Source: Saccharothrix longispora (GTDB lineage: Bacteria > Actinomycetota > Actinomycetes > Mycobacteriales > Pseudonocardiaceae). Taken from it: a stretch of DNA of 64,000 nucleotides. Position numbers and translations under genes: made by a program. Positions within the stretch are counted from its first letter, which is position 1. Every line of letters begins with the position of its first letter. Below are positions 5,610 to 55,867 of the stretch, piece after piece. Where the stretch lies: the NCBI RefSeq assembly GCF_030852425.1, contig NZ_NSDM01000013.1, forward strand, positions 248,001 to 312,000. The letters run 5' to 3'. The notes below the pieces were generated by a model. It made no database searches. It saw nothing but the letters and a program-made list of their open reading frames with translations, and was not told the origin of the DNA.

Positions 5610-6197
5610 TCAGGCGGGCGCGACCCCCGGCCGCCGGCGCATCGCGAGGGTGAACTGGTAGACGTACAGGGCGCCGGACCAGAGGTACAGGGCGGCGCCC
5701 CAGGCCATGAAGGCGCAGGCGATCGGCAGGGCGATCCGGGCCGCGGTGGACGTGCCCTGGGCGAGCAGCAGCATGGGGAACGCGTAGAGCAGGTTGAACG
5801 TGGCCGCCTTGCCCAGGTAGTTGACGTCGAACGGCCCGTAGCCGCGGGCGCGCAGCACGGGCAGGCAGGCGCCGACGAGGATCTCGCGGCCCGCCAGGAG
5901 CGCGACGAGCCACCACGGCACGATGTCGCGCACGACGAACGCGATGAGCGTGGCGAGGATGTAGAGGCGGTCGGCGGCGGGGTCGAGGAGCGTGCCGAGC
6001 CTGCTGGTCTGGTCGAGCCAGCGCGCGATCTTGCCGTCGAGCCAGTCGGACAGGCCCGCGGCGACGAGGACGACGACCGCCCAGCCGTCGGCCCGCGGAC
6101 CCAGCAGGAGGTAGAGGAAGAGGGGCACACCGAGCAGCCGCAGCACGCTGAGCGCGTTCGGGATGGTCAGCAGCCGGTCGGCGGGGTCTTGCGGCAC
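5610..6197 (-). CDS. CDP-alcohol phosphatidyltransferase family membrane enzyme (PgsA-like)
   Basis: A 195-residue integral membrane protein with the CDP-alcohol phosphotransferase signature DG-x2-AR-x8-G-x3-D-x3-D at about residues 54-76. It has roughly four to six hydrophobic segments. The family transfers a phosphatidyl group from CDP-diacylglycerol to an alcohol; the position next to gcvH and garA mirrors Rv1822 (annotated pgsA2). The acceptor alcohol cannot be told from the sequence. The gcvH start lies 57 bp downstream, so they may share a transcript. Confidence 0.9.
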   Translation of the reverse strand: MPQDPADRLLTIPNALSVLRLLGVPLFLYLLLGPRADGWAVVVLVAAGLSDWLDGKIARWLDQTSRLGTLLDPAADRLYILATLIAFVVRDIVPWWLVALLAGREILVGACLPVLRARGYGPFDVNYLGKAATFNLLYAFPMLLLAQGTSTAARIALPIACAFMAWGAALYLWSGALYVYQFTLAMRRRPGVAPA

Positions 6198-6246
6198 GGC
6201 CTGGACTCTAGTGCCGCCGGGCGGTCGCGGGCGTCATACCGCGGGC

Positions 6247-6273
6247 CGACCGCCCGGTCGTGCCGGGCGGTCG
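6247..6273 (-). terminator. Intrinsic terminator between the small gene and pgsA-like gene
   Basis: CGACCGCCCGG, loop TCGTG, CCGGGCGGTCG: an 11-bp perfect stem. A third copy of CCGGGCGGTCG about 30 bp away (about 6218-6228) allows an alternative hairpin. Confidence 0.6.
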
Positions 6274-6287
6274 CCGTCGGATCACGG

Positions 6288-6527
6288 TCAGTGGTGGCGG
6301 GTGCGGCTCCACCCGCGGCGCTGGAGTTCGTCACCGCTGAGCGCCTGCGGGCGGCCCCGGTCGTCGACGCCGACCCAGCGGGCGCGGAAACCTTCGAGCA
6401 CGTAGGCGTGGCCCTTGCTCCAGACCACGCTGCAGGGAGCCGTCGGCAGCGGTCCGGCGCCGTGGGAACCGGCGCGGGCCGCCCTGGGCTTCGCGGGCTC
6501 GGTCTCGGTCCCCGTGCTGGTGCTCAT
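6288..6527 (-). CDS. Small uncharacterised protein (79 aa)
   Basis: The first 30 residues are low-complexity and Thr/Ala/Pro-rich; a compact C-terminal part reads SVVWSKGHAYVLEGFRARWVG and ends with basic residues and two histidines. The ATG at 6527 is preceded by GGAGGGAATTCAC, a strong Shine-Dalgarno at good spacing, which is the main evidence for a real gene. No family is recognised. A terminator follows. Confidence 0.65.
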   Translation of the reverse strand: MSTSTGTETEPAKPRAARAGSHGAGPLPTAPCSVVWSKGHAYVLEGFRARWVGVDDRGRPQALSGDELQRRGWSRTRHH

Positions 6528-6948
6528 GTGAATTCCCTCCACCGGGGTTGTCGTCCACGGCTCTCGCGGCGTTATCCCCGTCACTCGATTCTGGGTGCCC
6601 CGCCGTGGAACCCGAAACCCGTTCTCGTGCTGTCTCGCCCACCGGGCGGTTCGGATCGCCGAGTTGCGCGGAACCCTTACCCCCGGGTGTAGCCGGCCCG
6701 ACCGCAATCGAACCGTTCACCGTCCGTCACCCACCGCACACCGAAAAGCGCACTACACTGGGGCCGACAAGCCGCTGCGGGCTCGCTTGTGGTGTTCCCA
6801 CGGGCTCCGTACGGTGGTGGCCGCAGCGGTTGAGCCCACAGCCGCGCCGGGGAGTCCGGCCGGCGGACGCGCGTCCCGCTGCGCAGCAGCCCTGTGCGTC
6901 GGGCGCTCCCGGGCTCCGATCAGCTGTCCAGGTGAAGAGGAGACCCTC
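6528..6948. other. Intergenic region upstream of the STAS gene
   Basis: No gene is supported in these 421 bp. A possible -10 box TACACT is at 6754-6759 on the plus strand; I could not pair it with a good -35. The first bases carry the Shine-Dalgarno of the divergent small gene. Confidence 0.5.
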
Positions 6949-7368
6949 GTGACGGTTCAGGACCCGAACGTCGTGGCGACGGCCGGAGCCGAGTCCGCCG
7001 CGTCCAGCAACCCCCGCGCCGGGCAGGTCGGGCTCACCGTCCGGCAGGCGGGCGCGGGTGCCACCGTGGTCGGGGTGAGCGGGGAGATCGACATGCTCAC
7101 CGCACCGCAGTTGCGCGCCGAGGTGCTCCGGCACCTCGCGGCGGGCACCACGCTCGTGCTCGACCTGTCCGGGGTGAGCTTCCTGGGGTCCGCCGGGCTG
7201 GCGGTCCTGGTGGAGGCGGCGCAGCACGGCAAGCGCCGGGACGCCGCGTTCCGCGTCGTCGCCGTCGCGCGCGCCGTCACCCGACCGCTGGCCGCCACCG
7301 GTCTGGGCGAGGTGTTCAGCGTGTTCGAGTCGGTCGAGCAGGCGCTGGGGGCCGACGAGGCCCGTTGA
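6949..7368 (+). CDS. STAS-domain anti-anti-sigma factor
   Basis: A 139-residue RsbV/SpoIIAA-type protein. The STAS domain spans about residues 25-130, with the strand GEIDMLTAPQLRAE and the phospho-acceptor loop DLSGVSFLGSAGLAVL, where the serine before AGL is the expected phosphorylation site. Such proteins, when unphosphorylated, bind the kinase/anti-sigma factor and free SigF/SigB-type sigma factors. The GTG at 6949 has GAGGAG 7 nt upstream; a long upstream open frame is ignored. It converges with the ATPase-STAS gene and is 0.9 kb from rsbW-sigF. Confidence 0.92.
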   Translation: MTVQDPNVVATAGAESAASSNPRAGQVGLTVRQAGAGATVVGVSGEIDMLTAPQLRAEVLRHLAAGTTLVLDLSGVSFLGSAGLAVLVEAAQHGKRRDAAFRVVAVARAVTRPLAATGLGEVFSVFESVEQALGADEAR

Positions 7369-7394
7369 GCCCGAGGACCGACGCGCCGGGAGCC

Positions 7395-8165
7395 CTAGGG
7401 GTGGTGCGGCACGACGTCCACGACCCGGTCCACGCCCGCCGCGACGAGAGCGCGGCGGGCGTGGCCGTCTTCGGGCGCGCGCACGACGACCCGGTTGCCC
7501 GCCGCCGCGGCGGCCTCGGCGACCGGGCGCAGGCTGCGGATCAGGCCCTCGGCGCGCGAGCCGAGCGCGCGCAGGTCGACCACGACGGGCACGCTGCCGC
7601 CCCGCGCGGCGGCGAGGATGCGCCTGCGCACGGCCGGCGCGAACTGGGCGGGCACGTCGCCCCGCACGACGACCTCCACCCAGCCCTCGCGCTCGGTGAC
7701 CACCACCGGTTCGCGGGGCGCCGACGTGTAGGTCCCGCGCGCGGTGCGGCCGGGTGTCATGCGCAGGGTCACGGTGGTGCCGGTCGGTTGGCGGTCGATC
7801 AGCACGTCGTCGACGTTCTCGTGCATGAGCAGCAGCCCACGCCCGCGCGTGGTCAGGGCGGCGGGTGGCACGCGCCACGTGCCGTAGTCCGCCACCACGA
7901 CGCGCACGCCGCCGTCGGGCCGGCTGTCGGCCTCGATGTGCACCACCCCGTCCTCACCGGGCGGGTAGGCGTGCTCCACGGCGTTGCTGGCGGCCTCGTT
8001 CACCGCGATGAGCAGGTCGTAGCGGTCGTCCTCGGTGAGCCCGGAGGTCGCCAGCCAGCTGTCGAGTCGTGCACGGACCGCCGCGAGCTGAGCCGGCTGT
8101 GCCGGGAACTCCACTCCCCAGTGGTGGTCCGCGAGTTGATCGGTCAAGGGCCCTCCCCGTCGCAC
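7395..8165 (-). CDS. RsbW-type HATPase fused to a C-terminal STAS-like domain
   Basis: A 256-residue protein. Residues about 15-140 are a GHKL ATPase of the anti-sigma kinase class (N box DLLIAVNEAASNAVEHAYPP, G1 DYGTWR, G2 TRGRGLLLM). After a linker, residues about 150-250 look like a STAS fold (VVRGDVPAQ, then VPVVVDLRALGSRAEGLIR), but the usual phospho-serine loop is altered (ALGSRAEG). Joining a kinase and its usual substrate fold in one chain is unusual. GTG 8165 and TTG 8147 both have a GGGGAGG-type site; I list the longer form. Divergent from rsbW-sigF. Confidence 0.82.
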   Translation of the reverse strand: MRRGGPLTDQLADHHWGVEFPAQPAQLAAVRARLDSWLATSGLTEDDRYDLLIAVNEAASNAVEHAYPPGEDGVVHIEADSRPDGGVRVVVADYGTWRVPPAALTTRGRGLLLMHENVDDVLIDRQPTGTTVTLRMTPGRTARGTYTSAPREPVVVTEREGWVEVVVRGDVPAQFAPAVRRRILAAARGGSVPVVVDLRALGSRAEGLIRSLRPVAEAAAAAGNRVVVRAPEDGHARRALVAAGVDRVVDVVPHHP

Positions 8166-12520: not shown

Positions 12521-13465
12521 ATGAGGAAGCAGCGCATCGGTTCCCTGGAGGTCAGCGCCCTGTGCCTGGGCACGCTGCCGTTCGGGAAGTTCGTGGACGA
12601 GGAGACGTCGTTCGCGATCATGGACCGCTTCGTGGAGGCGGGTGGGACGTTCCTGGACACGGCGAACAACTACGTGTTCTGGGACGGCGGCACGGGTGAC
12701 GAGAGCGAGGAGGTGGTGGGGCGCTGGTTGGCGGCGCGCGGCAACCGGGACGACGTGGTGGTGGCGACGAAGGTGGGCGCGCGGCCCCGGACGCCCGGCA
12801 CGGGGTTGGAGAACGCGGAGGGCCTGGCCGGTGACGTCGTCCGGTCGGCGGCGGAGGCGAGCCTGAAGCGGTTGGGCACGGACCGGATCGACCTGTACTA
12901 CAGCCACGTCGAGGACCGGGCTGTGCCGTTGGAGGAGACGCTGGGCGGGTTCGCGTCGCTGGTCGGGGCGGGTCGGGTTCGGGAGGTGGGTGCGAGCAAC
13001 CACGCCACGTGGCGGTTGGAGCGGGCGCGGGCGGTGGCGCGGGCGAACGGCCTGCCGGTGTACGTGGCGGTGCAGCAGCGGTTCAGCTACCTGCGGCCGC
13101 GGCCGGGGGTGCGGCTGCCGGAGGCCGGGCACGTGCACATGACCGACGAGCTGTTCGACTACGCGGCGCACGAGGGGGACGTGGCGCTGGTGGCGTACTC
13201 GACGCTGCTGGCGGGGGCGTACCGGGACAAGCCGCTGGGTGAGGCGTACGACCACCCGGGCACGGCGCGGGGGTCGGCGGTGCTGCGGGAGGTGGCCGCG
13301 GAGCTGGGGGCGACGGTCAACCAGGTGGTGCTGGCGTGGGTGATGCGCCGGGGGGTGCTGCCGCTGGTGGGGGCGAGTTCGGTGGCGCAGCTGGAGGAGA
13401 CGCTGGGGGCGCTCGACGTGGAGCTGGACGACGACCGCCTGCGGCGGCTGGACGAGGCGGTGTGA
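12521..13465 (+). CDS. Aldo/keto reductase
   Basis: A 314-residue TIM-barrel NAD(P)H oxidoreductase. The catalytic tetrad is visible as Asp46, Tyr51, Lys84 and His129 (FLDTANNY, ATKVG, YYSHVED). A conserved C-terminal cofactor region (GASSVAQLEE) is also present. It reduces aldehydes or ketones; the natural substrate is unknown. There is no Shine-Dalgarno, and the promoter geometry places transcription start at or next to the ATG. The gene is predicted to be induced by a MerR-family regulator encoded outside the window. A strong bidirectional terminator follows. Confidence 0.93.
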   Translation: MRKQRIGSLEVSALCLGTLPFGKFVDEETSFAIMDRFVEAGGTFLDTANNYVFWDGGTGDESEEVVGRWLAARGNRDDVVVATKVGARPRTPGTGLENAEGLAGDVVRSAAEASLKRLGTDRIDLYYSHVEDRAVPLEETLGGFASLVGAGRVREVGASNHATWRLERARAVARANGLPVYVAVQQRFSYLRPRPGVRLPEAGHVHMTDELFDYAAHEGDVALVAYSTLLAGAYRDKPLGEAYDHPGTARGSAVLREVAAELGATVNQVVLAWVMRRGVLPLVGASSVAQLEETLGALDVELDDDRLRRLDEAV

Positions 13466-13487
13466 CCCGGTGACGCGATGACAGCGG

Positions 13488-13519
13488 CGCGGGCACGGTC
13501 CGGGTGGACCGTGCCCGCG
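13488..13519. terminator. Bidirectional terminator
   Basis: A 14-bp perfect stem (CGCGGGCACGGTCC) with loop GGGT, between the convergent aldo/keto reductase and DUF4383 genes. Confidence 0.8.
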
Positions 13520-13538
13520 TCGGTGGTGGGTGGGGCTG

Positions 13539-14219
13539 TCAGCGGAAGTGCCGCGCCCTCTGCTGCTCGGCGACGGCGGGGTCGATCGGGTGCACGGGTC
13601 GGGCCGTCACGGTGGGGTCGGCGGACTCGACCCGGTCGTCGTGGTGCCGGTCGCCGTGGGTGCGGTGGGTGTCGACGCGCTGCGTGGGCAGTTCCCGCGT
13701 CTGCGCGTCGCGGATCGACTCGTCCCGGTCGACCGGGTGGGCCTCGACGGGCTCGACGGTCTCCTCCGGCACGACGATCTTGCGCCGGGCGGGCAGGACG
13801 GCGATCAGGAGGCCGACGACGGCGAAGCCGAGGTGCAGCCAGTTGTCGTTGGTGTTGAGCGCCAGCGGGTTGCCCAGCCCGGAGACGGGGTTGCCGGAGA
13901 AGACGCCCGCGAGCGCCAGGCCCCACAGGAGCACGGCGCCGTAGGCGAGGAAGACGATCCAGCCGTAGAGGCGGGCCAGGCCGGAGCCGGTGGCCATGAG
14001 CAGGCCGAGCACGCCGAACGCCAGGTGGATCGTGTTGTGCAGCGGGTTCACGGCGAACCCGAGCACCATGGCGTGCTGGTCCCCCGCGAAGTCGCCGAAA
14101 CCGGTGCGCAGGAAGCCCACGACACCGAACGCGAGGAAGACCAGGCCGAGGAGACCAGCCAGCACCTGGGCGGGCTGGAGACCCGCGACCTTGACACGGC
14201 CGACGGTCGAGTGGGTCAT
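13539..14219 (-). CDS. DUF4383 family membrane protein
   Basis: A 226-residue protein with four hydrophobic segments in the first about 150 residues (LLGLVFLAFGVVGFL, the NPLHNTIHLAFGVLGLL stretch, YGWIVFLAYGAVLLW, LHLGFAVVGLLIAVLP). The histidine-bearing NPLHN..H motif is typical of DUF4383. The C-terminal 75 residues are hydrophilic, rich in Asp/Glu/Arg/His and probably cytoplasmic. The function of the family is unknown. The ATG at 14219 has GGAGGGCGTG upstream. A good SigF-type promoter (GTTT-N16-GGGTAG) about 60 bp upstream suggests stress induction. Confidence 0.88.
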   Translation of the reverse strand: MTHSTVGRVKVAGLQPAQVLAGLLGLVFLAFGVVGFLRTGFGDFAGDQHAMVLGFAVNPLHNTIHLAFGVLGLLMATGSGLARLYGWIVFLAYGAVLLWGLALAGVFSGNPVSGLGNPLALNTNDNWLHLGFAVVGLLIAVLPARRKIVVPEETVEPVEAHPVDRDESIRDAQTRELPTQRVDTHRTHGDRHHDDRVESADPTVTARPVHPIDPAVAEQQRARHFR

Positions 14220-45409: not shown

Positions 45410-48034
45410 TCAGGCCCCGAAGCAGAGGAAGCCCGCGCTCGCCGCGTAGGCCTCGTGACCGGTGTCGCGGTGGGCCTCCTGCGCGCCGGCCAACGCCACC
45501 GCCGGCGGGTCGCCCTTCCCCAGCCTCCGGTGCAGGTCCACCATCAACGGCGTGGTCACCTCCGCCGGCACGGGCACGACCGGCGCGACCAGGGTCCGGG
45601 TGCCCAGGCCCAGCAACGCCGCCGTGAAGCCCATCAGCTCGTCCCCCGGCCGCACCGCCGACAGGCCCGAGTCGCACGCCGACAGCACGACCAGCGCGGG
45701 CGGGCGGCGCAGGCGCTCCAGGTCGTGGACGGTGAGGGGTCCGTCGGCCAGCTCCAGGGCGGAGAACAGCGGGTTGTCGGCGCGGAACGAGCCGTGCGCG
45801 GCGACGTGGGCCAGCGGCGCGCCGTCCATCGCGGCGGCCACCGCGTCGACCGTCGCGTCCGCGCCCACCAGCACCGAGGCCCCACCGGCGAGCGGCGCGA
45901 TGGCGGCGATCTCGGTGGGCGCGGCGGGCAGCCGGGGGCCGGCGGCCAGCACCGCCCGGTCGTGCGGGACGGCGGACGACAGCGCCGCGCGCAGCCACAC
46001 GGTCGCCGACGGCACCACGGTCACCGACCGCCCGCGGCAGCCGGGCAGCGCCGACCAGGGCAGGCCGCCGAGCTGGCCGGTGGGCGCGAGCACGAGCGGC
46101 CGGTCGTCGAGGCGCCGGCGCAGCGGGGCGAGCAGGCGGGTGTCGAGCAGCCGGGCGGTGTGGTCGGCCCCGCCGCGCACGGCGGTCCTGTCGAGGTGCC
46201 CGGGCAGGGTGACGAGCCGGTGCAGGGCGAACCTGAGCAGCCGCACCTCGCGCAGCGCCCCGTCGAGCGGTCCGAGCCGGTGCAGCGAGGCGCGTCCCCC
46301 GGCGACGACCACGGCCAGCAGGTCGCCGTCGTAGTCGACGTACTCGACCAGCGCCCGCTCGCCGAGCGCCTGGGCGAGGTCGCGCACCGCGGGCGGCTTG
46401 AACACCGCGCCGCCGCCGCTGGTCTGCCGGGTCAGGTCGCGCACGCGCTGCTCGCCGCGCACCTGGCGCTGGCGCAGCCCGGCGGACGGCTTGCCGGCCA
46501 GCAGCGCGATCTCCAGGTCGGCGGTCACCGCGCGCAGCTCGGTGAGGGCGTCGGCGAGCCCGGAGTCCTCCGGCGGTCGGGCGGGCGTCATCCGCATGGC
46601 GCCCGCGCGCCACGCCTCCGCCCACGACAGCACGCGTCCCGCGTGGCCGCCGGCGACGGCCGCGCGCAACCCCTCGAACGCCAGCGCCTTGCCCTGGGCG
46701 CCGCTCGACGCGCGCAGCTCGACCGCGCCCAGCGACACCCGGTACTCGTCGAGCAGCCCGAGCCCGCGGCGCAGCGCGATCTGCGCGCCGCGGGCGTTGC
46801 CGAGCAGGTCGCGGCGCAGCGCCTCCGCGTACCAGCCCTGCACCCGGTGCGCCGCCGTGCCGCCGCGCCGGGCCGCCCCCGCCGTGGTCAGCTCGGCCAC
46901 GGCACGCCGCCGGTCGCCCAGGTCCCGGGCGACGAGCGCGGCGTCGACCCGTGCCTCCAGCCCCGCCATGCGCCAGCCGAAGTCCTCCAGCCGGGCCGCC
47001 ACGCGCACGAGCGCGGTCACCAGCCCGCGGGTGCGCTGCCCGCTGAGGTAGGCGGCGCGCAGCTCGACGTGCCGGGCGCTCGCCTCCCACACCTCGCGCC
47101 GCTCCCGCCGGAAACCCTTGCGCGCCAGCACCGCCATCTCCACGGCGCGCTCCAGGTCGCCCTCCAGCAAGGCGATGCGCGCCCGGTAGAACTGGGCCTC
47201 GGAGCGGGCCAGCACGAGGTCGCCGACCATCTCCTCCAGCGCCCGGTCGGCCGCCGCGCGGGCCTCTTCCAGCAGCGGCACGGACACCAGCAGCTCCAGC
47301 CGGTTGATCAGCAGCGCGGGCCGCGGCACGGCCAGCCGCCGGTACTCGCGCTCGGCCTCGGCGAACATCGTCAGGGCACGCGGCACGTCACCCGCGCGGG
47401 AGGCGGAGATGCCCGCGTTCCAGCGCACGTCGGCCACGGCCAGCTCCTGGCCCAGCGACCGGTACAGGGCGGCGGCGCGGTCGAAGTCCTCGTCGGCCGC
47501 CTTCAGGCCGCCGGTGTAGGCGCGCAGCAGGCCGCGGTTGTTGCGGGCGCGGGCCTCGCCGAGCCGGTCGCCGGTGCGGCGGGCGGCCTCGATGGCCGAG
47601 TTGTACTCGCGCTGCGCCTCGTCGTAGCGGCACAGGTAGTGCAGCACGAGGCCGCGCTGCATGCGGGCGATGTCGGCGTCGCCGCCGTCGAGCGCGCCGA
47701 CCGCCTCGTTGACCGCGCGCAGCGCCTGGGCGTGCCGGCCGGTGGTGGACAGCACGAACGCGAGGCTCACCCGGGCCAGCGCGGCGAGCCGCGCGGAACC
47801 GGCGCCCTCGGCGATGCGGACGGAGCGGCGCAGGTGCCGCAGCGCGCCGTCGAAGTCGTGCAGCTCGCGCAGCGACAGGCCGATGGCGCGTTCGGCGGTC
47901 GACGCCTCCTCGGCGTCGCCGGAGAGCCGCGCGGCCCGCAGCGCCGAACGGCCCATCTCGATCGCCGCGCGCGGGTCCCGTTGCCGGGCGTCCAGCGCCG
48001 CCGCGGCGGCGGATTCCGCTGCCACGAAACCCAC
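45410..48034 (-). CDS. TPR-CHAT protein (caspase-like protease with tetratricopeptide repeats)
   Basis: About 874 residues with no signal peptide. The N-terminal two-thirds are TPR-like helical repeats (ALRHLRRSVRIAEGAGSARL, ARARNNRGLLRAYTGG, AALYRSLGQELAVADVRWNA and others). The C-terminal CHAT domain has the catalytic pair His747 (LAHVAAHGSF) and Cys787 (VVLSACDSGLS), both intact. CHAT proteases cut partner proteins on activation. GTG 48034 or GTG 48025; the second has AAGGTGGG at better spacing. Divergent from a cytoplasmic subtilisin gene over 66 bp, and close to a sigma factor gene. Confidence 0.92.
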   Translation of the reverse strand: MGFVAAESAAAAALDARQRDPRAAIEMGRSALRAARLSGDAEEASTAERAIGLSLRELHDFDGALRHLRRSVRIAEGAGSARLAALARVSLAFVLSTTGRHAQALRAVNEAVGALDGGDADIARMQRGLVLHYLCRYDEAQREYNSAIEAARRTGDRLGEARARNNRGLLRAYTGGLKAADEDFDRAAALYRSLGQELAVADVRWNAGISASRAGDVPRALTMFAEAEREYRRLAVPRPALLINRLELLVSVPLLEEARAAADRALEEMVGDLVLARSEAQFYRARIALLEGDLERAVEMAVLARKGFRRERREVWEASARHVELRAAYLSGQRTRGLVTALVRVAARLEDFGWRMAGLEARVDAALVARDLGDRRRAVAELTTAGAARRGGTAAHRVQGWYAEALRRDLLGNARGAQIALRRGLGLLDEYRVSLGAVELRASSGAQGKALAFEGLRAAVAGGHAGRVLSWAEAWRAGAMRMTPARPPEDSGLADALTELRAVTADLEIALLAGKPSAGLRQRQVRGEQRVRDLTRQTSGGGAVFKPPAVRDLAQALGERALVEYVDYDGDLLAVVVAGGRASLHRLGPLDGALREVRLLRFALHRLVTLPGHLDRTAVRGGADHTARLLDTRLLAPLRRRLDDRPLVLAPTGQLGGLPWSALPGCRGRSVTVVPSATVWLRAALSSAVPHDRAVLAAGPRLPAAPTEIAAIAPLAGGASVLVGADATVDAVAAAMDGAPLAHVAAHGSFRADNPLFSALELADGPLTVHDLERLRRPPALVVLSACDSGLSAVRPGDELMGFTAALLGLGTRTLVAPVVPVPAEVTTPLMVDLHRRLGKGDPPAVALAGAQEAHRDTGHEAYAASAGFLCFGA

Positions 48035-48057
48035 CTTATTACCAAGACCCCTGTGGT

Positions 48058-48071
48058 AGCTTGATCAAGCT
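48058..48071. promoter_or_regulatory. 14-bp palindrome between the CHAT and subtilisin genes
   Basis: AGCTTGATCAAGCT is perfectly symmetric and sits near the middle of the 66-bp divergent region, which is unusually AT-rich for this genome. A shared operator is the simplest reading; the regulator is unknown. Confidence 0.5.
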
Positions 48072-48100
48072 CGCACCTCCGTCGACGCTGCTGTGAGGCT

Positions 48101-49306
48101 GTGGTGTCCCAACCATCGAATCGTGCGGAGCTGTACCGCCAGGTTTTCGACCAGGCGATCAAGGAGCACACGGCTTTCCGGTTGCACGCCGAGCGCGGGC
48201 GGGAATTCCTGTTCGTGGCCCGTGAGCTGCTGACCATCCCCCAGGACGTCGACCGGGTCTCGCGGAAACTGACGCAGAACAACATCGTCAACGAACGCGG
48301 TCGCGATTTCGCCGGGATGAGCCGGTTGATCCTTCCGCGCAATTCCGACGACATCCCGCGGATCGTGCGGTTGTTGCGCGACCCCCTCCAATGGCCCGGT
48401 GAGCGGACGCCGTTCGTCCAGCCGCACCACGCGGTGGTCGGCCACGGCGGGAACATGCACGGGCACCCCGGGCAGCCGCCGCAGGTGGCCGGGCCGCTGC
48501 CGGCCCCGGACGGGGCGCGGCTGGGCCAGGGGAAGGGCGTCACCGTCGGCGTGCTCGACACGGGCGTCTCCAAGACCGCCGAGGCAGACCACCCCCTGTG
48601 GCTCAAGGGCGCGTTCCTCCCGAGGGCCGACGAGGTCGACGCCGCCTACGCGCACGACGACGTGTTCGCCGTGGAGGGCGGGCACGGCACGTTCGTGATG
48701 GGCGTGGTGCGGCAGGCCGCGCCGGGCGTGCGCCTCGACCCGGAGCGCGCGCTGGACCCGGCGGGCCTGGGCACCGAGGAGGACTTCTTCCGGGCGCTGA
48801 CGTCGTTCGACGAGCGGGTGCAGGTCGTCAACATCTCGATGGGGTGCTTCACGCTGGACGACGTGGCCTCCGAGCCGGTGCGCAGGGCGGTCGCCCAGCT
48901 GCCCGCCGACGTCGTGGTGGTGGCGTCCGCCGGCAACCAGGGCACGAACCGGCCGAGCTGGCCCGCCGCGCTGAGCGGGGTCACGGCGGTCGCCGCCGTC
49001 GCCCAGGAGCGCGACGGCACGCGTTCACCCGCCTGCTACTCCAACCACGGCCACTGGGTGGACGCGTGCGCGGTCGGCAACCGGACCAGCACGTTCCTCA
49101 AGGGCCGGTGGCAGCTGCCGGGCCTGCCGGCGGAGGTCTACGACCGGTTCGCCTACTGGCTGGGCACCTCGTTCGCCGCGCCGCACGTGGCGGGCCGCAT
49201 CGCCGAGACGATGACGACGTTCGGGTTGTCGGCGGTCGACGCCCGCGCGACGCTGCTCGGCGGGAAGCCCGAGTTCTTCCCCGGCTACGGGATCTTCGTG
49301 GACTAG
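48101..49306 (+). CDS. Cytoplasmic S8-family (subtilisin-like) serine protease
   Basis: A 401-residue protein. The subtilisin domain occupies about residues 145-390 with an intact triad Asp153 (VGVLDTGVS), His195 (GGHGTFVMG) and Ser357 (GTSFAAPHVAG), plus oxyanion Asn279 (ASAGNQGT). The first 140 residues are a separate region (FRLHAERGREFLFVARELLT, NNIVNERGRDFAGMSRLIL) with no signal peptide or recognisable prodomain, so the enzyme is probably intracellular. GTG 48101 or 48104. Paired divergently with the CHAT protease and followed by the sigma factor gene. Confidence 0.92.
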   Translation: MVSQPSNRAELYRQVFDQAIKEHTAFRLHAERGREFLFVARELLTIPQDVDRVSRKLTQNNIVNERGRDFAGMSRLILPRNSDDIPRIVRLLRDPLQWPGERTPFVQPHHAVVGHGGNMHGHPGQPPQVAGPLPAPDGARLGQGKGVTVGVLDTGVSKTAEADHPLWLKGAFLPRADEVDAAYAHDDVFAVEGGHGTFVMGVVRQAAPGVRLDPERALDPAGLGTEEDFFRALTSFDERVQVVNISMGCFTLDDVASEPVRRAVAQLPADVVVVASAGNQGTNRPSWPAALSGVTAVAAVAQERDGTRSPACYSNHGHWVDACAVGNRTSTFLKGRWQLPGLPAEVYDRFAYWLGTSFAAPHVAGRIAETMTTFGLSAVDARATLLGGKPEFFPGYGIFVD

Positions 49307-49438
49307 TCGTATCTGCGGGGGGCATGGTTGCTCCGTAGTGTGTGGCAGCGAAGAATCCGATGTCCCGGACCCGGCTCGGGCCCGCGCCCGAGCACGCCGG
49401 GGCGCAGGCGTGGCACCCCCTGGACAGGAGGAGGGGAC

Positions 49439-50068
49439 GTGACCCCTGCATCGCCGATCGGCGCGCTGGTGGGCGCCGCCGCGGACGGGGACCAGCGCGC
49501 CTGGCACGAGATCATCGACCGGTACACGCCGCTGGTGCTGTCGGTGATCTACAAGCACCGGCTGCGCCCGGCGGACACCGCGGACGTCAACCAGACCGTG
49601 TGGCTGCGGCTGGTCGAGCAGATCGGCAGGCTGCGGGAAGCCGACGCGCTGCCGGGGTGGATCGCCACGACCACCCGCAACGAGTGCCTGCGCGTCCTGC
49701 GCGCGCAGCAGCGCCTCCAGCCCTACGACCCCCTGTCCGAGGACGAGCCGGCCAGCCCGGTGGACGCGGTCGCGGACCTGGACGAGGAGATGGAGGCGTC
49801 GCAGCGGCTCCAGGCGCTGCGCGACGGCTTCCGGGCGCTGCCCGCGCAGTGCCGCGAGCTGCTGGCCAAGCTGATGGCGGACCCCCCGCCGAGCTACGCG
49901 GCGGTCAGCGAGGAGCTGGCGATGCCGGTGGGCAGCATCGGGCCCACCCGCATCAGGTGCCTGGACAAGCTGCGGAAGACCCCCGCGGTGTACCGGTTGT
50001 TCAGCCCGAGACCTGGTGGAGGAGGTGTGGTCGGTGTCGACGGTCGATCCGGGGTGGGAAAGCGATGA
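49439..50068 (+). CDS. ECF-like sigma-70 factor linked to the CHAT/subtilisin genes
   Basis: A 209-residue sigma factor. Region 2 is about residues 10-85 (AWHEIIDRYTPLVLSVIYKH, TADVNQTVWLRLVEQIGRL, ALPGWIATTTRNECLRVLRA) and region 4 about 125-180 (LPAQCRELLAKLMADPPPSY, MPVGSIGPTRIRCLDKLRK). The C-terminal 30 residues are Gly/Arg-rich and overlap the next gene. GTG 49439 follows a GGAGGAGGGG-like site. A GCTCGGGC-CCGC-GCCCGAGC hairpin (49374-49393) lies in its leader. No membrane anti-sigma gene is adjacent. Confidence 0.9.
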   Translation: MTPASPIGALVGAAADGDQRAWHEIIDRYTPLVLSVIYKHRLRPADTADVNQTVWLRLVEQIGRLREADALPGWIATTTRNECLRVLRAQQRLQPYDPLSEDEPASPVDAVADLDEEMEASQRLQALRDGFRALPAQCRELLAKLMADPPPSYAAVSEELAMPVGSIGPTRIRCLDKLRKTPAVYRLFSPRPGGGGVVGVDGRSGVGKR

Positions 50069-50498
50069 CGCGCTGCTGCGCGACCTGAAGGCCGCGCTCG
50101 ACGAGCGGGCGGGCGTGCCCGGGCACATCCGCGACGCGGCGCGGGCAGCGTGGACGTGGCGCACGGTCGACACCGAGCTGATCGCGCTGACCAGCTACGA
50201 CTCGGTGCTGGACGGTGAGCTGGCGACCCGGGCGCGGGCGGCGCAGACGGCGCGTCAGCTCGTGTTCGACGCCGAGGGCGTGTCGGTGCAGGTCGAGGTC
50301 ACCGAGGTGGGCGTCGCGGGCCAGGTGCTGCCCGCGCGGCCGGGCCGGGTGGTGCTGCTGACGGCGACCGGTCCGGTGGAGGAGGCGGAGCTGGACGAGG
50401 TGGGCATGTTCCTGCTCGGCCCGCCGCCGCGGGGGCCGGTGCGGCTGCGGTGCGAGGTGGGTGACGACGTCGTGGTCACCGAATGGGTGAACGTGTAG
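50034..50498 (+). CDS. Uncharacterised partner protein of the sigma factor (154 aa)
   Basis: The N-terminus is helical (DDALLRDLKAALDERAGVPG, HIRDAARAAWTWRTVDTELI). The rest is predicted beta-rich (LVFDAEGVSVQVEVTEVGVA, VRLRCEVGDDVVVTEWV). No cysteine-histidine zinc motif or membrane segment is visible. It overlaps the sigma gene by 35 bp and has GGAGGAGG before GTG 50034, so both are cotranslated from one message. It could be an anti-sigma factor, an adaptor, or a protease substrate; none of these is demonstrated. Confidence 0.75.
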   Translation: MSTVDPGWESDDALLRDLKAALDERAGVPGHIRDAARAAWTWRTVDTELIALTSYDSVLDGELATRARAAQTARQLVFDAEGVSVQVEVTEVGVAGQVLPARPGRVVLLTATGPVEEAELDEVGMFLLGPPPRGPVRLRCEVGDDVVVTEWVNV

Positions 50499-51456: not shown

Positions 51457-52056
51457 TCAGGCGAACGTCGGCTGCCGCATGGCGTGCTGCACCAGCGTGA
51501 TCAGCGTCTGCTTGGTCGACTGCCGGTTGCGCGCGTCGCACGGGACGATCGGCACCGCCTGGTCGATCGTCAGCGCCTCCCGGATGTCCTCGATGCGGTG
51601 GTGCAGCAGGCCGTCGAAGCAGTTCACGCCCACCACGTACGGCAGTTCGCGGTCCTCGAAGAAGTCGATCGAGGCGAACGCGTCGGACAGCCTGCGGGTG
51701 TCGACCAGCACGACCGCGCCGATCGCGCCCCGCACCAGGTCGTCCCACATGAACCAGAAGCGGTGCTGGCCGGGGGTGCCGAACAGGTACAGGATCAGGT
51801 CGCTGTCGAGCGAGACGCGGCCGAAGTCCATGGCCACCGTGGTGGTCATCTTGTTCGGCGTGCTCGTCAGGTCGTCCACGCCGACGCTGGCCTCGGTCAT
51901 CACCGCCTCGGTGGTCAGCGGGACGATCTCCGACACCGAGCCGACGAAGGTCGTCTTGCCGACGCCGAACCCGCCCGCCACCACGATCTTGGTCGACGTG
52001 ACGGACGTGCTCGGCACCGCGGGCGACCCGGGCCGTCCGGGAGCGCGACCGCTCAT
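51457..52056 (-). CDS. Conservon small GTPase (CvnD-like)
   Basis: A 199-residue Ras-like GTPase of the MglA/CvnD type: P-loop GGFGVGKTTFVGSVS (about residues 28-42), TEASVGVDDLTSTPNKMTTT (switch I), LFGTPGQHRFWFMWDDLVRG (G3 and switch II). A canonical NKxD is replaced by GVNCFD. It would switch downstream of the roadblock protein and sensor kinase. The usual DUF742 gene (CvnC) between roadblock and GTPase is absent here; the gap is only 43 bp. Confidence 0.93.
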   Translation of the reverse strand: MSGRAPGRPGSPAVPSTSVTSTKIVVAGGFGVGKTTFVGSVSEIVPLTTEAVMTEASVGVDDLTSTPNKMTTTVAMDFGRVSLDSDLILYLFGTPGQHRFWFMWDDLVRGAIGAVVLVDTRRLSDAFASIDFFEDRELPYVVGVNCFDGLLHHRIEDIREALTIDQAVPIVPCDARNRQSTKQTLITLVQHAMRQPTFA

Positions 52057-52099
52057 GTTGCTCTGCTTTCCCTAGTAGTAGGAGGACCGCCGGTGGGGC

Positions 52100-52522
52100 T
52101 CAGCTGCGCATCGCCACGTGGAGCCGCGACCGGATCTCCGGGGTCAGCTGGATGCCGACCCGCTCGACCAGTCGCGTCATGGCGTAGCCGATGAGGCCGA
52201 TGTCGCAGTTCGGGGCGGCCAGCACGGCCAGGCAGGACCCGTCGCTGATGGACATGAGGAACAGGTAGCCCCGTTCCATCTCCACGACGGTCTGCTTGAC
52301 GTCACCGGCCTCGAAGCACCGCGCGGCCCCGAGGTTCAGGCTGACCAGGCCCGACGAGACGGCCGCGAGCTGCTCGGCGCGGTCGACCGGGAGGCGCTCC
52401 GAGGACGCGAGCAACAGGCCGTCCGCCGAGACCACGATCGCGTGCGCCACGCCCGCGACCCGGCTGACGAAATCGTCGACCAGCCAACTGAAGTTGTTCA
52501 GTTCTTCGGCTGCGGAGGTCAC
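52100..52522 (-). CDS. Roadblock/LC7-domain protein (CvnB-like)
   Basis: A 140-residue Roadblock protein: [39 protein letters not shown], and [20 protein letters not shown] are standard actinobacterial MglB/CvnB features. It is presumed to regulate the GTPase encoded next. GTG 52522 overlaps the kinase stop by GTGA. Confidence 0.94.
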
Positions 52523-55500
52523 TTCTGCTCCTTGTTGTCTGCGTTGCCGAACGACAAGCCCTCCCAGGGCATCCCGGCGTCGTCGCCGGACTCGCGGCCC
52601 AGCTGCACACCTCGCTGGTAGGTGGCGAAGCGCTGCCGCAACCGGTCCGCGGACCGGCGCGGGGGCGCGGTCGCGAGGCCGGCGGACGTGGAGCCGTTCG
52701 CCGACGGCTGGGCCGACGGCGACGACCCCCGGGGGGAGGGCGCGGTGAGCGATCCGGGCACCAGGCGCGCCTTGGGGACGCGCTTGGGCAGACCCGCGGT
52801 GGTGGTGTCGTCCACGGGAGCCTTGAGCGTGTTGGTGGCCGTGGACCACCCGTCGTCCGCCGCGCCCCACCCGGCCGCCGTCCCCGACGTGGGGATCGCC
52901 GACGGCGCGGGCTCGCGCTTGGGCAGACCCGCGGGCGTGGAGCCCTTGGGCTCCGGCGGGACGGGCTTGGGGAGCGGCGACGGCGCGGGAGCGGCGTGGG
53001 CCGGGGCGTGCTCCGCCTCGGCCGGGTCCACGCGCTGGGCGTAGACCGTGCGCTCCGACGCGGACCCGTCCGAGTCCCCGACCAGGTCGACCCGATCGGC
53101 GAACATGGTCCTCTCCGCGGCGGTCTCGGGCGGCACGCTCCGGCCGCCGTTGAGGTCGCCCTGCACGTGCACGGGCGCGTCGGCGGCCTCGCCGCCCTGG
53201 AACCAGCGGGACAGCACGTCCTCGTAGATGGGCAGGCGCTGGGTCGAGGCGTCGTCCTCCTCGATCGCCGGCGGGGGCGTGGGCTCGTAGTCGGCCGCGC
53301 CCGGCGGGTAGGAGTAGTCCGGCGCCTCGTCGGCGGGCGGCGGGACCGTCTCGGTCACCGTGGCGGTGAACAGGTCGGTCGACGGGCTCCGCTCGACCTC
53401 GAAGTAGCCGTTGGGCTCGGCGGTGTGCGTCTGCACCACCGGGAACGGCGCGGGCGTCGCGTCCGGCGGGGCGTACGCGCCGGGTGTGGCGTCCGGCGTC
53501 CACTTGGGGACGCCGGCGAGCACGCCGACACCGCTGGTCTCCACGTCCGGGTTGGCCTGGCGCTGCGGCAGGGCCAGCGGGGCGGGCTTCGCGGCGATCG
53601 GCTCGGGTCCCCGGTGCAGCAGGCCGACCGGGAGGACGACCTGGGCCGTGACCCCACCCTCTATGTCGTCGTTGTTGCTCAGCGTGACCCTGATCTCGTG
53701 GCGCTTGGCCAGCTGGCCGACCACGTACAGGCCCATCTCGCGGGCCACCGACACGTCGACCTCGGGCGGGTCGGCGAGCTTGGTGTTCGCCTCGGCGATG
53801 TCCTGCTCCTGCATGCCGACACCGCGGTCGTGGATGCGGATGGACACCTCGCCGCGCCGGGTCTCGATGGCCCGCACCGTGACCTTGGTGGTGGGCTTGG
53901 AGAACGCGGTCGCGTTGTCGAGCAGCTCGGCGATGAGGTGCGCGAGGTCGTTGACCACGCGGCCCTGCACGCGCATCTCGGGCGCGGGCGCGATCTGGAT
54001 GCGGGCGTACTTCTCGACCTCGGACACCGCGGCGCCGAGCACCTCGGAGATCGGCACGGGCCGGGTGACGCGGCGGTTGACCGTGGTGCCGGAGAGCACC
54101 AGCAGGTTCTCGCTGTTGCGGCGCATCTGGGTCGCCAGGTGGTCCAGCTCGAACAGGCTGGCCAGCTGGTCGGGGTCCTGCTCGTCCTGCTCCAGCCGGT
54201 CGATGACCGTGATCTGCCGCTCCACCAGTGCCTGCGAGCGCCGCGACAGGTTGATGAACATGTCGTTGACGTTCGCGCGGAGCGCCACCTGCTCGACGGC
54301 GAGGCGGACGGCCTCGCGCTGCACGGCGTCGAACGCGCGGGCCACCTGGCCGACCTCTTCGGTCGTGTTGATGGGCACCGGCACCAACGCCTCCTCCGCG
54401 GCGCGTTCCGGGTCGCGGTGCGTCCGGATGCGCTTGATCGCGTCGGGCAGGCGGTTGCGGGCCACGTCGAGCGCGGTGCGCCGCAGGACGCGCAGCGGCG
54501 TCAGCATCGAGCGGGCGACGAACGCCATGAGGGCGAACGCGATGATCAGGGCGACGGCGACCAGGGCCGCGTCGCGCCAGGCGTTGCCGCGGGCGGTCTC
54601 GGTCAGCTCGACCGCCGCCCGGTCGGCCTGGCCCTCGATGTCGCGGGTGACCGTCCGCAGCAGCGCCGCGGTCTCCTCGCCGACCCGCATGACCTCGGAG
54701 TCGTTGATCCCGACCTCGCCGGACTCGCCCTGCTGCACCTGGGCGAGCTGAACGAGCCGGTTGCGGCCGTCCACCGCCGGGCCGGACACGGTGTCCGACA
54801 GCAGCTGGCGGTTCTCCTGGCTCGCGACGTTCGCGAAGTCCGACAGCGCGGCGTCCAAACGGGACTGCGCGGCGCGCAGCGCGTTCAGCTGGCCGGGCGC
54901 GAACTCGCCGCGCTGCGCGACCGACAGCAGGATGGAGTTCTGCTGCGACAGCTGCTCCTTCGCGCTGTACAGCGCGAAGTTGGCGCCCGCGAGCGGCGTC
55001 AGCGTCCCGTTGCTCAGGCTGCTCGACGTCGCCCGGTGCACCTGCGCGAGCGTGGCCAGCACCTGGTTGTACGCGGTGTGGACCGAGACGTCGGGGTACC
55101 TGCTGTTGGACACCGTGTTGCGCAGGGCGAGCAGGCCGTCGAGGGACTGCACCGCCTTCTGGAACGCGTCGCGCACCGATTCGTCGATGCCGCTCGTCGC
55201 CGCGGCGACGTCGCGGAAGCGACCGACCTCGCTGTCGACCTTGCCGGACCGCGTGACGTACTCCCCGGCGCCTTCGCCGCGACCGCCCGCCACGAACCAC
55301 ACCGCGGCGTCGCGCTCCAGCTGGAGCGCGTCGGAGACCGCGGCGGCCTGGGCGGACAGCTGGAGTTCCCGCTGGACCTTGCCGAACAGCTCGACGTCGT
55401 CGAGCTGCGTGTTCAGCCGCAGCCCCGCGAGGGTCAGCGTGCTCAGCGCGGGCACCAGGAGCACCACGGCCAGCTTGCTGCGCAGGCGCCAGTTCCTCAA

Positions 55501-55641
55501 ACGCCACCGGGACACGCCCCGGTCGGCGGGAACCGCGCCTGTGCTGGGACCCGAGTCGGGCGGACCGCTCTCGGCGGTCCCCGTGTCGAGTTGAATCCGC
55601 TCCGGATCTCTCCCGGAGGCGTGGTCGTCGTGACCGCGCAC
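52519..55641 (-). CDS. Nitrate-sensing-domain sensor histidine kinase (CvnA-like)
   Basis: About 1040 residues. One transmembrane helix near residues 55-75 ([20 protein letters not shown]), an extracytoplasmic NIT domain, a second helix near 365 ([19 protein letters not shown]) and a HAMP-like region. A dimerisation segment [20 protein letters not shown] carries the likely phospho-histidine. The HATPase has N box [17 protein letters not shown] and G1 [10 protein letters not shown]. The last about 350 residues are Pro/Ala/Glu-rich and disordered. GTG 55641 is preferred (GGGGAG 10 nt upstream); TTG 55695 is possible. First gene of the conservon. Confidence 0.9.
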
Positions 55642-55867
55642 CGTCAGCACACTCCCCAGCCCCCCAGCCAGTGATGAAACGAGACTTCCCTGCAAACCCG
55701 GGCGATCTTGGTGGAAAAAAGCCCGGAGTCATACCGCCGTTCGGACGAGGACCCGTGTAGTTGGTAAATCAACCATTGTCGCGCGGACCACAGCTGGACG
55801 CGCTAAACGATCGCTAACCCGGTTCACGGGTATTTCACGCCTCGGACCCGAACGGGAAACGCCCGAG

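Follow-up and report, generated by a model that had tools for sequence, protein, structure and literature searches.

Proteolytic control of the extracytoplasmic function (ECF) sigma factors of group ECF54 is proposed in section 3.3 and Table 2 of a 2022 review (PMC8999054) from the carboxypeptidase, subtilase and CHAT proteins encoded in their neighbourhood; the group is attributed there to Huang 2015 and Casas-Pastor 2021. In a second described system, the type III-E Craspase/CASP (Cas7-11, Csx29, Csx30 and CASP-sigma), Csx30 binds and inhibits the sigma factor and is cut by Csx29, according to the passages of PMC10028731 on these proteins. Comparable genes are present in Saccharothrix longispora, on a 64,000-nucleotide stretch of contig NZ_NSDM01000013.1 (hereafter the window), where a tetratricopeptide repeat (TPR)-CHAT cysteine protease, an S8 subtilisin-type protein, an ECF-type sigma factor and a small partner protein are encoded side by side between positions 45410 and 50498. 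The four families are linked across Actinomycetota far beyond chance, and some relatives of the S8 protein carry short tandem peptide arrays at the junction of their predicted prodomain and catalytic domain.

The window module is best filed as ECF54-type, an assignment made by gene context. It shares with ECF54, as treated in the review, an ECF sigma factor with CHAT and subtilase proteins in its neighbourhood, whereas its third partner is a protein of 154 amino acids (aa) without a recognised protease domain instead of a carboxypeptidase-domain protein. The 'carboxypeptidase' named for ECF54 is probably this same small protein and not a protease. Among the few homologues scanned, one (P0049) matches CarboxypepD_reg with an E-value of 1.1e-5 and a score of 26.1 bits, short of the curated cut-off (32.3); no CarboxypepD_reg match was found in the window protein. 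The gene grouping and the idea of proteolytic control are not new, both being in print for ECF54. Neither a prodomain reading nor junction arrays were found in the ECF54 treatment of the review, and in the literature looked at no description of, or function for, S8 junction arrays was found. The junction arrays are the foremost point added here; the zymogen model of the S8 protein, the co-occurrence of split modules and the reading of the small protein are further additions.

With Craspase, as presented in PMC10028731, the module shares a TPR-CHAT protease, an ECF-like sigma factor and a third protein; it differs in having a second protease, the S8 protein, and in the size of the third protein (154 aa vs 565 for Csx30). 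A preliminary description of the locus had drawn this parallel and noted the lack of CRISPR parts. That lack holds as far as tested, because no RAMP protein (PF03787; Cas7-11/gRAMP) was matched in the genome, which is 99.4% complete, and no CRISPR-like repeat triple was found in the 64-kb window, the range covered by the CRISPR search. The window CHAT protein falls outside the Csx29 family, scoring 9.8 bits with NF041237 (cut-off 300). Within the range of these three tests the locus is no type III-E system.

Organization of the locus

The preliminary description had named four genes, a CHAT/S8 pair diverging over 66 bp and an overlap of the sigma and small genes, and all were confirmed. The CHAT gene (45410..48034, minus strand, GTG start, 874 aa) and the S8 gene (48101..49306, plus strand, 401 aa) diverge with their starts 66 bp apart. 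For the sigma gene (49439..50068, plus strand) the best start is the GTG at 49439, which gives a length of 209 aa as in P0198 and has the purine-rich AGGAGGAGGGG upstream. The small gene (50034..50498, plus strand) starts at the GTG at 50034, which gives 154 aa as in P0001, and overlaps the sigma gene by 35 bp. In the Pfam scan the CHAT domain (PF12770, 141.1 bits) covers residues 626-860 and is preceded by TPR_12, and the S8 protein matches Peptidase_S8 (PF00082, 77.3 bits). The sigma factor scores 66.8 bits with TIGR02937, whose cut-off is 42.9, over residues 58-217 in the numbering of the long reading of the gene, and in the Pfam scan it matches Sigma70_r2 above its cut-off; a separate region 4 match was not found by that scan.

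The catalytic residues of both proteases are positioned as had been described. In the first locus set, window included, CHAT His747 and Cys787 are conserved in all 46 aligned rows that reach them (a 47th ends at a contig end before the catalytic residues), and Asp153, His195, Asn279 and Ser357 of the S8 protein are conserved in 44/44 rows. Residue 824 of the window CHAT protein is Ala, where 44 of the 46 aligned rows have Asp (2 Ala, 1 gapped row); the alignment is uncertain at this point, with gaps nearby. No hydrophobic N-terminal stretch is present in the window module proteins, the highest 17-residue mean within the first 60 residues being 0.96. The hydrophobicity maximum of the CHAT protein (1.89) falls inside its CHAT domain.

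Linkage of the four families across Actinomycetota

A protein-pattern scan with the S8 protein gave 15 loci from Saccharothrix, Actinosynnema and Umezawaea, and the order and strands CHAT(-), S8(+), sigma(+), small(+) are kept in 14 of them, the exception being L034. Close S8 relatives (E <= 1e-35) occur in 18 of 393 sampled genomes of the class. According to the coordinates listed, sigma is encoded no more than 6 kb away in 17 of these genomes, and in G024 it is on a different contig from the close S8. Sigma relatives (E <= 1e-18) are more widely distributed, in 112/393 genomes and 42/123 genera of the class and in 39/296 genomes sampled across the phylum.

In all, 120 sigma loci were hand-chosen for variety (60 and then 40 of the class, 20 from other classes of the phylum) and scanned with profiles built for this analysis. 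Matches were counted at any distance within the stretch; some loci end at contig ends, and a few S8 matches may be unrelated subtilisins. The complete module is present at 71 of the 120 loci, with the small protein at 93, CHAT at 80 and S8 at 76. Small protein, CHAT and S8 occur together at 41 of the first 60 loci (individually 52, 44 and 43), all four families at 21 of the 40 further class loci, and the complete module at 9 of the 20 loci from other classes. Gene calling around the first 62 loci placed members of the four families at 56, 52, 46 and 37 loci and those of the next family at 17. Gene orders vary, and include CHAT divergent from S8-sigma-small, S8-sigma-small-CHAT, sigma-small-S8-CHAT and others; loci of the complete type are scattered over a quick sigma tree. 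The preliminary description had made its idea depend on conserved linkage, and linkage does hold across genera, families and classes.

Several further observations concern the surroundings of the modules. Directly after the module of S. tamanrassetensis (L028) lies a second S8 copy (12818-14065) with 71% identity to the window S8. L101, L103, L105, L106, L108-L110 and L115 have a common chromosomal neighbourhood (clusters c4, c5, c8, c10, c11, c13 and c16 in part), and since it is shared, old vertical inheritance is suggested at these loci. A family of large proteins (cluster c12), whose members read like ATPase regulators, adjoins sigma in 7 of the 62 loci (L067, L078, L084, L092, L093, L098 and L099).

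Split modules

Twelve genomes with a sigma locus lacking an adjoining CHAT gene were chosen; the sigma locus was fetched and scanned for nine of them and assessed by coordinates for three (G036, G051, G153). CHAT is encoded elsewhere in the genome in 12/12, and it adjoins S8 in all 12 and in 13 of the 14 fetched CHAT regions. One CHAT-S8 region of G006 contains the complete module, including a second sigma of its own, and in G080 the small gene stands with S8 and CHAT, apart from sigma. Across the class, CHAT (E <= 1e-15) is found in 107 of 112 sigma-positive vs 77 of 281 sigma-negative genomes (Fisher p ~1e-38, uncorrected for kinship).

The genome of the window itself carries two paralogous sigma-small-CHAT modules, on contigs C1 and C34 (L012, 6841-9412, and L010, 8834-12946), for which S8 was not found in the fetched 18 kb. 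A further sigma relative is encoded on contig C20 (L195, 7503-8915); small protein, CHAT and S8 were not found within the fetched 17 kb there.

The S8 protein as a zymogen and its junction arrays

The structural model of the S8 protein (pLDDT 93.5, pTM 0.93) has its best VIA-align matches in the unprocessed pro-subtilisin E and pro-Tk-subtilisin, over residues 40-401. Mature subtilisins score a lower Z than the pro-forms, and their alignment to the model starts at ~131. Because the pro-forms match from residue 40 and the mature forms only from ~131, residues ~27-114 (48179..48442, plus strand) are read, by model, as an inhibitory-type prodomain packed on the catalytic domain; the Pfam scan gave no prodomain match in the window S8. 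In many S8 homologues 'DH', 'NH' or 'HH' precedes the junction, which we take to resemble the end of a subtilisin prodomain. The module proteins thus share prodomain and catalytic fold with these subtilisin-type zymogens and differ in that most have no signal peptide (an N-terminal hydrophobic stretch is lacking in 35 of 37 called S8 genes). At L112 an S8 protein with an apparent signal peptide (6032-7342) stands beside a 214-aa protein (7339-7983) that occupies the small-protein slot and has a different N-terminal part.

A second difference from the subtilisin-type zymogens lies at the prodomain-catalytic junction, residues 111-135 in the window (48431..48505, plus strand). The alignment of distant S8 proteins displays tandem repeats immediately after the prodomain. 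Under a rule of period 5-12, at least 3 copies and 80% self-identity within the 150 residues before the catalytic domain, short arrays are present in 24 of the 76 S8 homologues at sigma loci (4/43, 15/23 and 5/10 in the three sets), a share that depends on lineage and counts related genomes several times. They are present in 0/16 S8 proteins of the 14 CHAT regions, and in control windows within the catalytic domain the counts are 0/75 (three sets) and 0/15 (CHAT regions). Among the 24 is L115, whose repeat is a low-complexity stretch of Gly and Pro. Six further S8 proteins carry spaced repeats (L062, L069, L071, L079, L107 and, by eye, L111).

The period of the arrays is 6, or 7 in two. Units include NPFTRS, NPFSRT, NPFMKT, NPYGRT, NPHGRT, NPYHSG, PFTRGA and PLTRGN, and also GYGDGV, GHPITG, NPAYQG, NPGYQG, GHPFWV and others. 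Comparison of neighbouring copies gives 239 synonymous vs 90 non-synonymous codon differences, with 447 codons identical, and the non-synonymous ones fall by eye mostly at the frayed array ends. Exact runs hold 173 silent changes over 18 arrays, the selection of such runs itself excluding non-synonymous changes. As the codon differences are mostly synonymous, the arrays are kept at the peptide level more than at that of DNA. A docking site for the TPR domain, a multiplied cleavage site and a released peptide are candidate roles for the array.

The small partner protein

In the 77 homologues of the small protein, N-terminal helices are combined with a beta domain. In the window protein these are a helical part at ~11-68, of low confidence, and an Ig-like beta domain at ~73-154; model confidence per ten-residue block runs from 46 to 78 in the former and from 80 to 97 in the latter. 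Its identity to one small protein of S. longispora is 97%. The small protein closely follows sigma at most loci, and at 14 of the 120 sigma loci (8, 1 and 5 in the three sets) the two occur with neither CHAT nor S8 beside them, a pattern that fits an inhibitor or chaperone of sigma. With its low-confidence helical part and Ig-like domain, the small protein is a candidate for a soluble anti-sigma factor.

Neighbouring genes

Downstream of the module, at 51457-55732, the domain scan identified an ATP_bind_1 GTPase-like gene beside conservon-like genes; the conservon-like labels (sensor kinase, small regulators) come from reading of the open reading frames, not from a scan.

Discussion

The module is tentatively read, at somewhat less than even confidence, as an ECF54-type proteolytic switch whose parts are soluble and cytoplasmic. 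We infer its signal, order of cleavage, substrates, anti-sigma role and regulon as follows. The TPR half of the CHAT protein would sense a ligand or partner, unleashing the CHAT cysteine protease, which would bind and/or cut the S8 protein at the prodomain-catalytic junction and so turn the zymogen on. In some relatives the junction array may serve for docking or cleavage. The small protein, whose translation is coupled to that of sigma, would hold sigma through the helical N-terminal part and offer the Ig-like domain to the proteases; cleavage would then free sigma, which would transcribe its own operon and a small regulon. A bolder form of this proposal is doubtful. It takes the S8 proteins to be cytoplasmic zymogens in which, across many lineages, the junction has been selected as an array of several peptide copies (units such as NPFTRS, NPYGRT and NPAYQG) and serves TPR-CHAT as a docking/cleavage platform; a caspase-like two-protease cascade would then release an ECF sigma factor by destroying a soluble anti-sigma factor whose combination of domains had not been recognised before. 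The preliminary description had likewise proposed a protease-to-sigma switch, set off by a stress or invader signal. Linkage and intact catalytic residues speak for the switch, and proteolytic control is plausible and already in print for ECF54. The CHAT protein does not belong to the Csx29 family, and an invader signal is without support.

Several results weigh against the proposed switch. No Pfam or NCBIfam match identifies an anti-sigma domain in the small protein, whose fold search covers residues 75-154, and the small protein was not found nearby at 27 of the 120 sigma loci. At L034 (S. coeruleofusca) CHAT and S8 are present, and sigma and small protein were not found within its 21 kb. 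Five of the 112 sigma-positive genomes (G073, G079, G179, G188 and G265) have no CHAT at E <= 1e-15; in G265 (locus L077) the profile built here finds a CHAT gene running into the contig end, and the other four remain exceptions. S8 tracks sigma weakly (0.33 vs 0.25 for the highest permutation), and the co-occurrence correlation reflects shared ancestry, at least partly. The window S8 has no junction array. Single cases apart, the S8 repeat unit does not occur above controls in the small protein, sigma or CHAT of the same locus, which argues against a common cleavage motif.

In the published ECF54 view there would be no anti-sigma factor; the proteases would act on sigma itself and keep its level low until a signal halts the degradation, with the small protein as an adaptor presenting sigma. 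This proposal of the review agrees with the lack of a recognised anti-sigma domain in the small protein. Against it stand the position of the small gene, closely behind sigma at most loci, and the 14 loci where the pair has no protease neighbour, and it is rated unlikely. Alternatively, the proteases could be the output, sigma itself being independent of proteolysis and controlling the transcription of a caspase-like cascade of CHAT and S8 by which the cell is killed or remodelled. Control elements are conserved in two places: GTG(G/A)TAGCTT in the 66-bp CHAT-S8 intergenic region (48053..48062 in the window; 16/16 loci), and 5' of sigma the promoter-like bipartite GTAT(C/T)-N17-CTCCG (49309..49335, plus strand; 15/15 loci, window included in both counts), the C form of which is present at 14/15 loci and is matched 4 times across the genome. 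In 9 of the 16 CHAT-S8 regions, that of the window among them, GTAGC-N17/18-CCG(T/C), a pair bearing a loose resemblance to this element, can be made out, in a pattern picked after viewing the window. CHAT-S8 pairs also occur apart from sigma, and at L034 with no sigma nearby. The exact sigma-upstream element, however, is found in 0/16 CHAT-S8 regions, and a crude class-wide word search gave no shared promoter motif; the reading of the proteases as the output seems improbable.

CHAT-S8 and sigma-small could also be two independent pairs that adjoin through old shared synteny alone. The pairs are split in a number of genomes, some loci share one conserved chromosomal neighbourhood, and at L034 CHAT and S8 occur with no sigma-small pair close by. 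But the four genes stay together under differing orders and strands, and 12/12 of the chosen split genomes keep both pairs, so that mere adjacency is quite improbable.

If the proposed switch is true, bacteria of several classes of Actinomycetota would control transcription by a cysteine-protease-to-zymogen cascade without CRISPR, membrane or zinc-finger anti-sigma parts. For ECF54 sigma factors, whose control by proteases has so far only been predicted, the small protein would then be an inhibitor, and the S8 junction an activation site, that can be put to the test.

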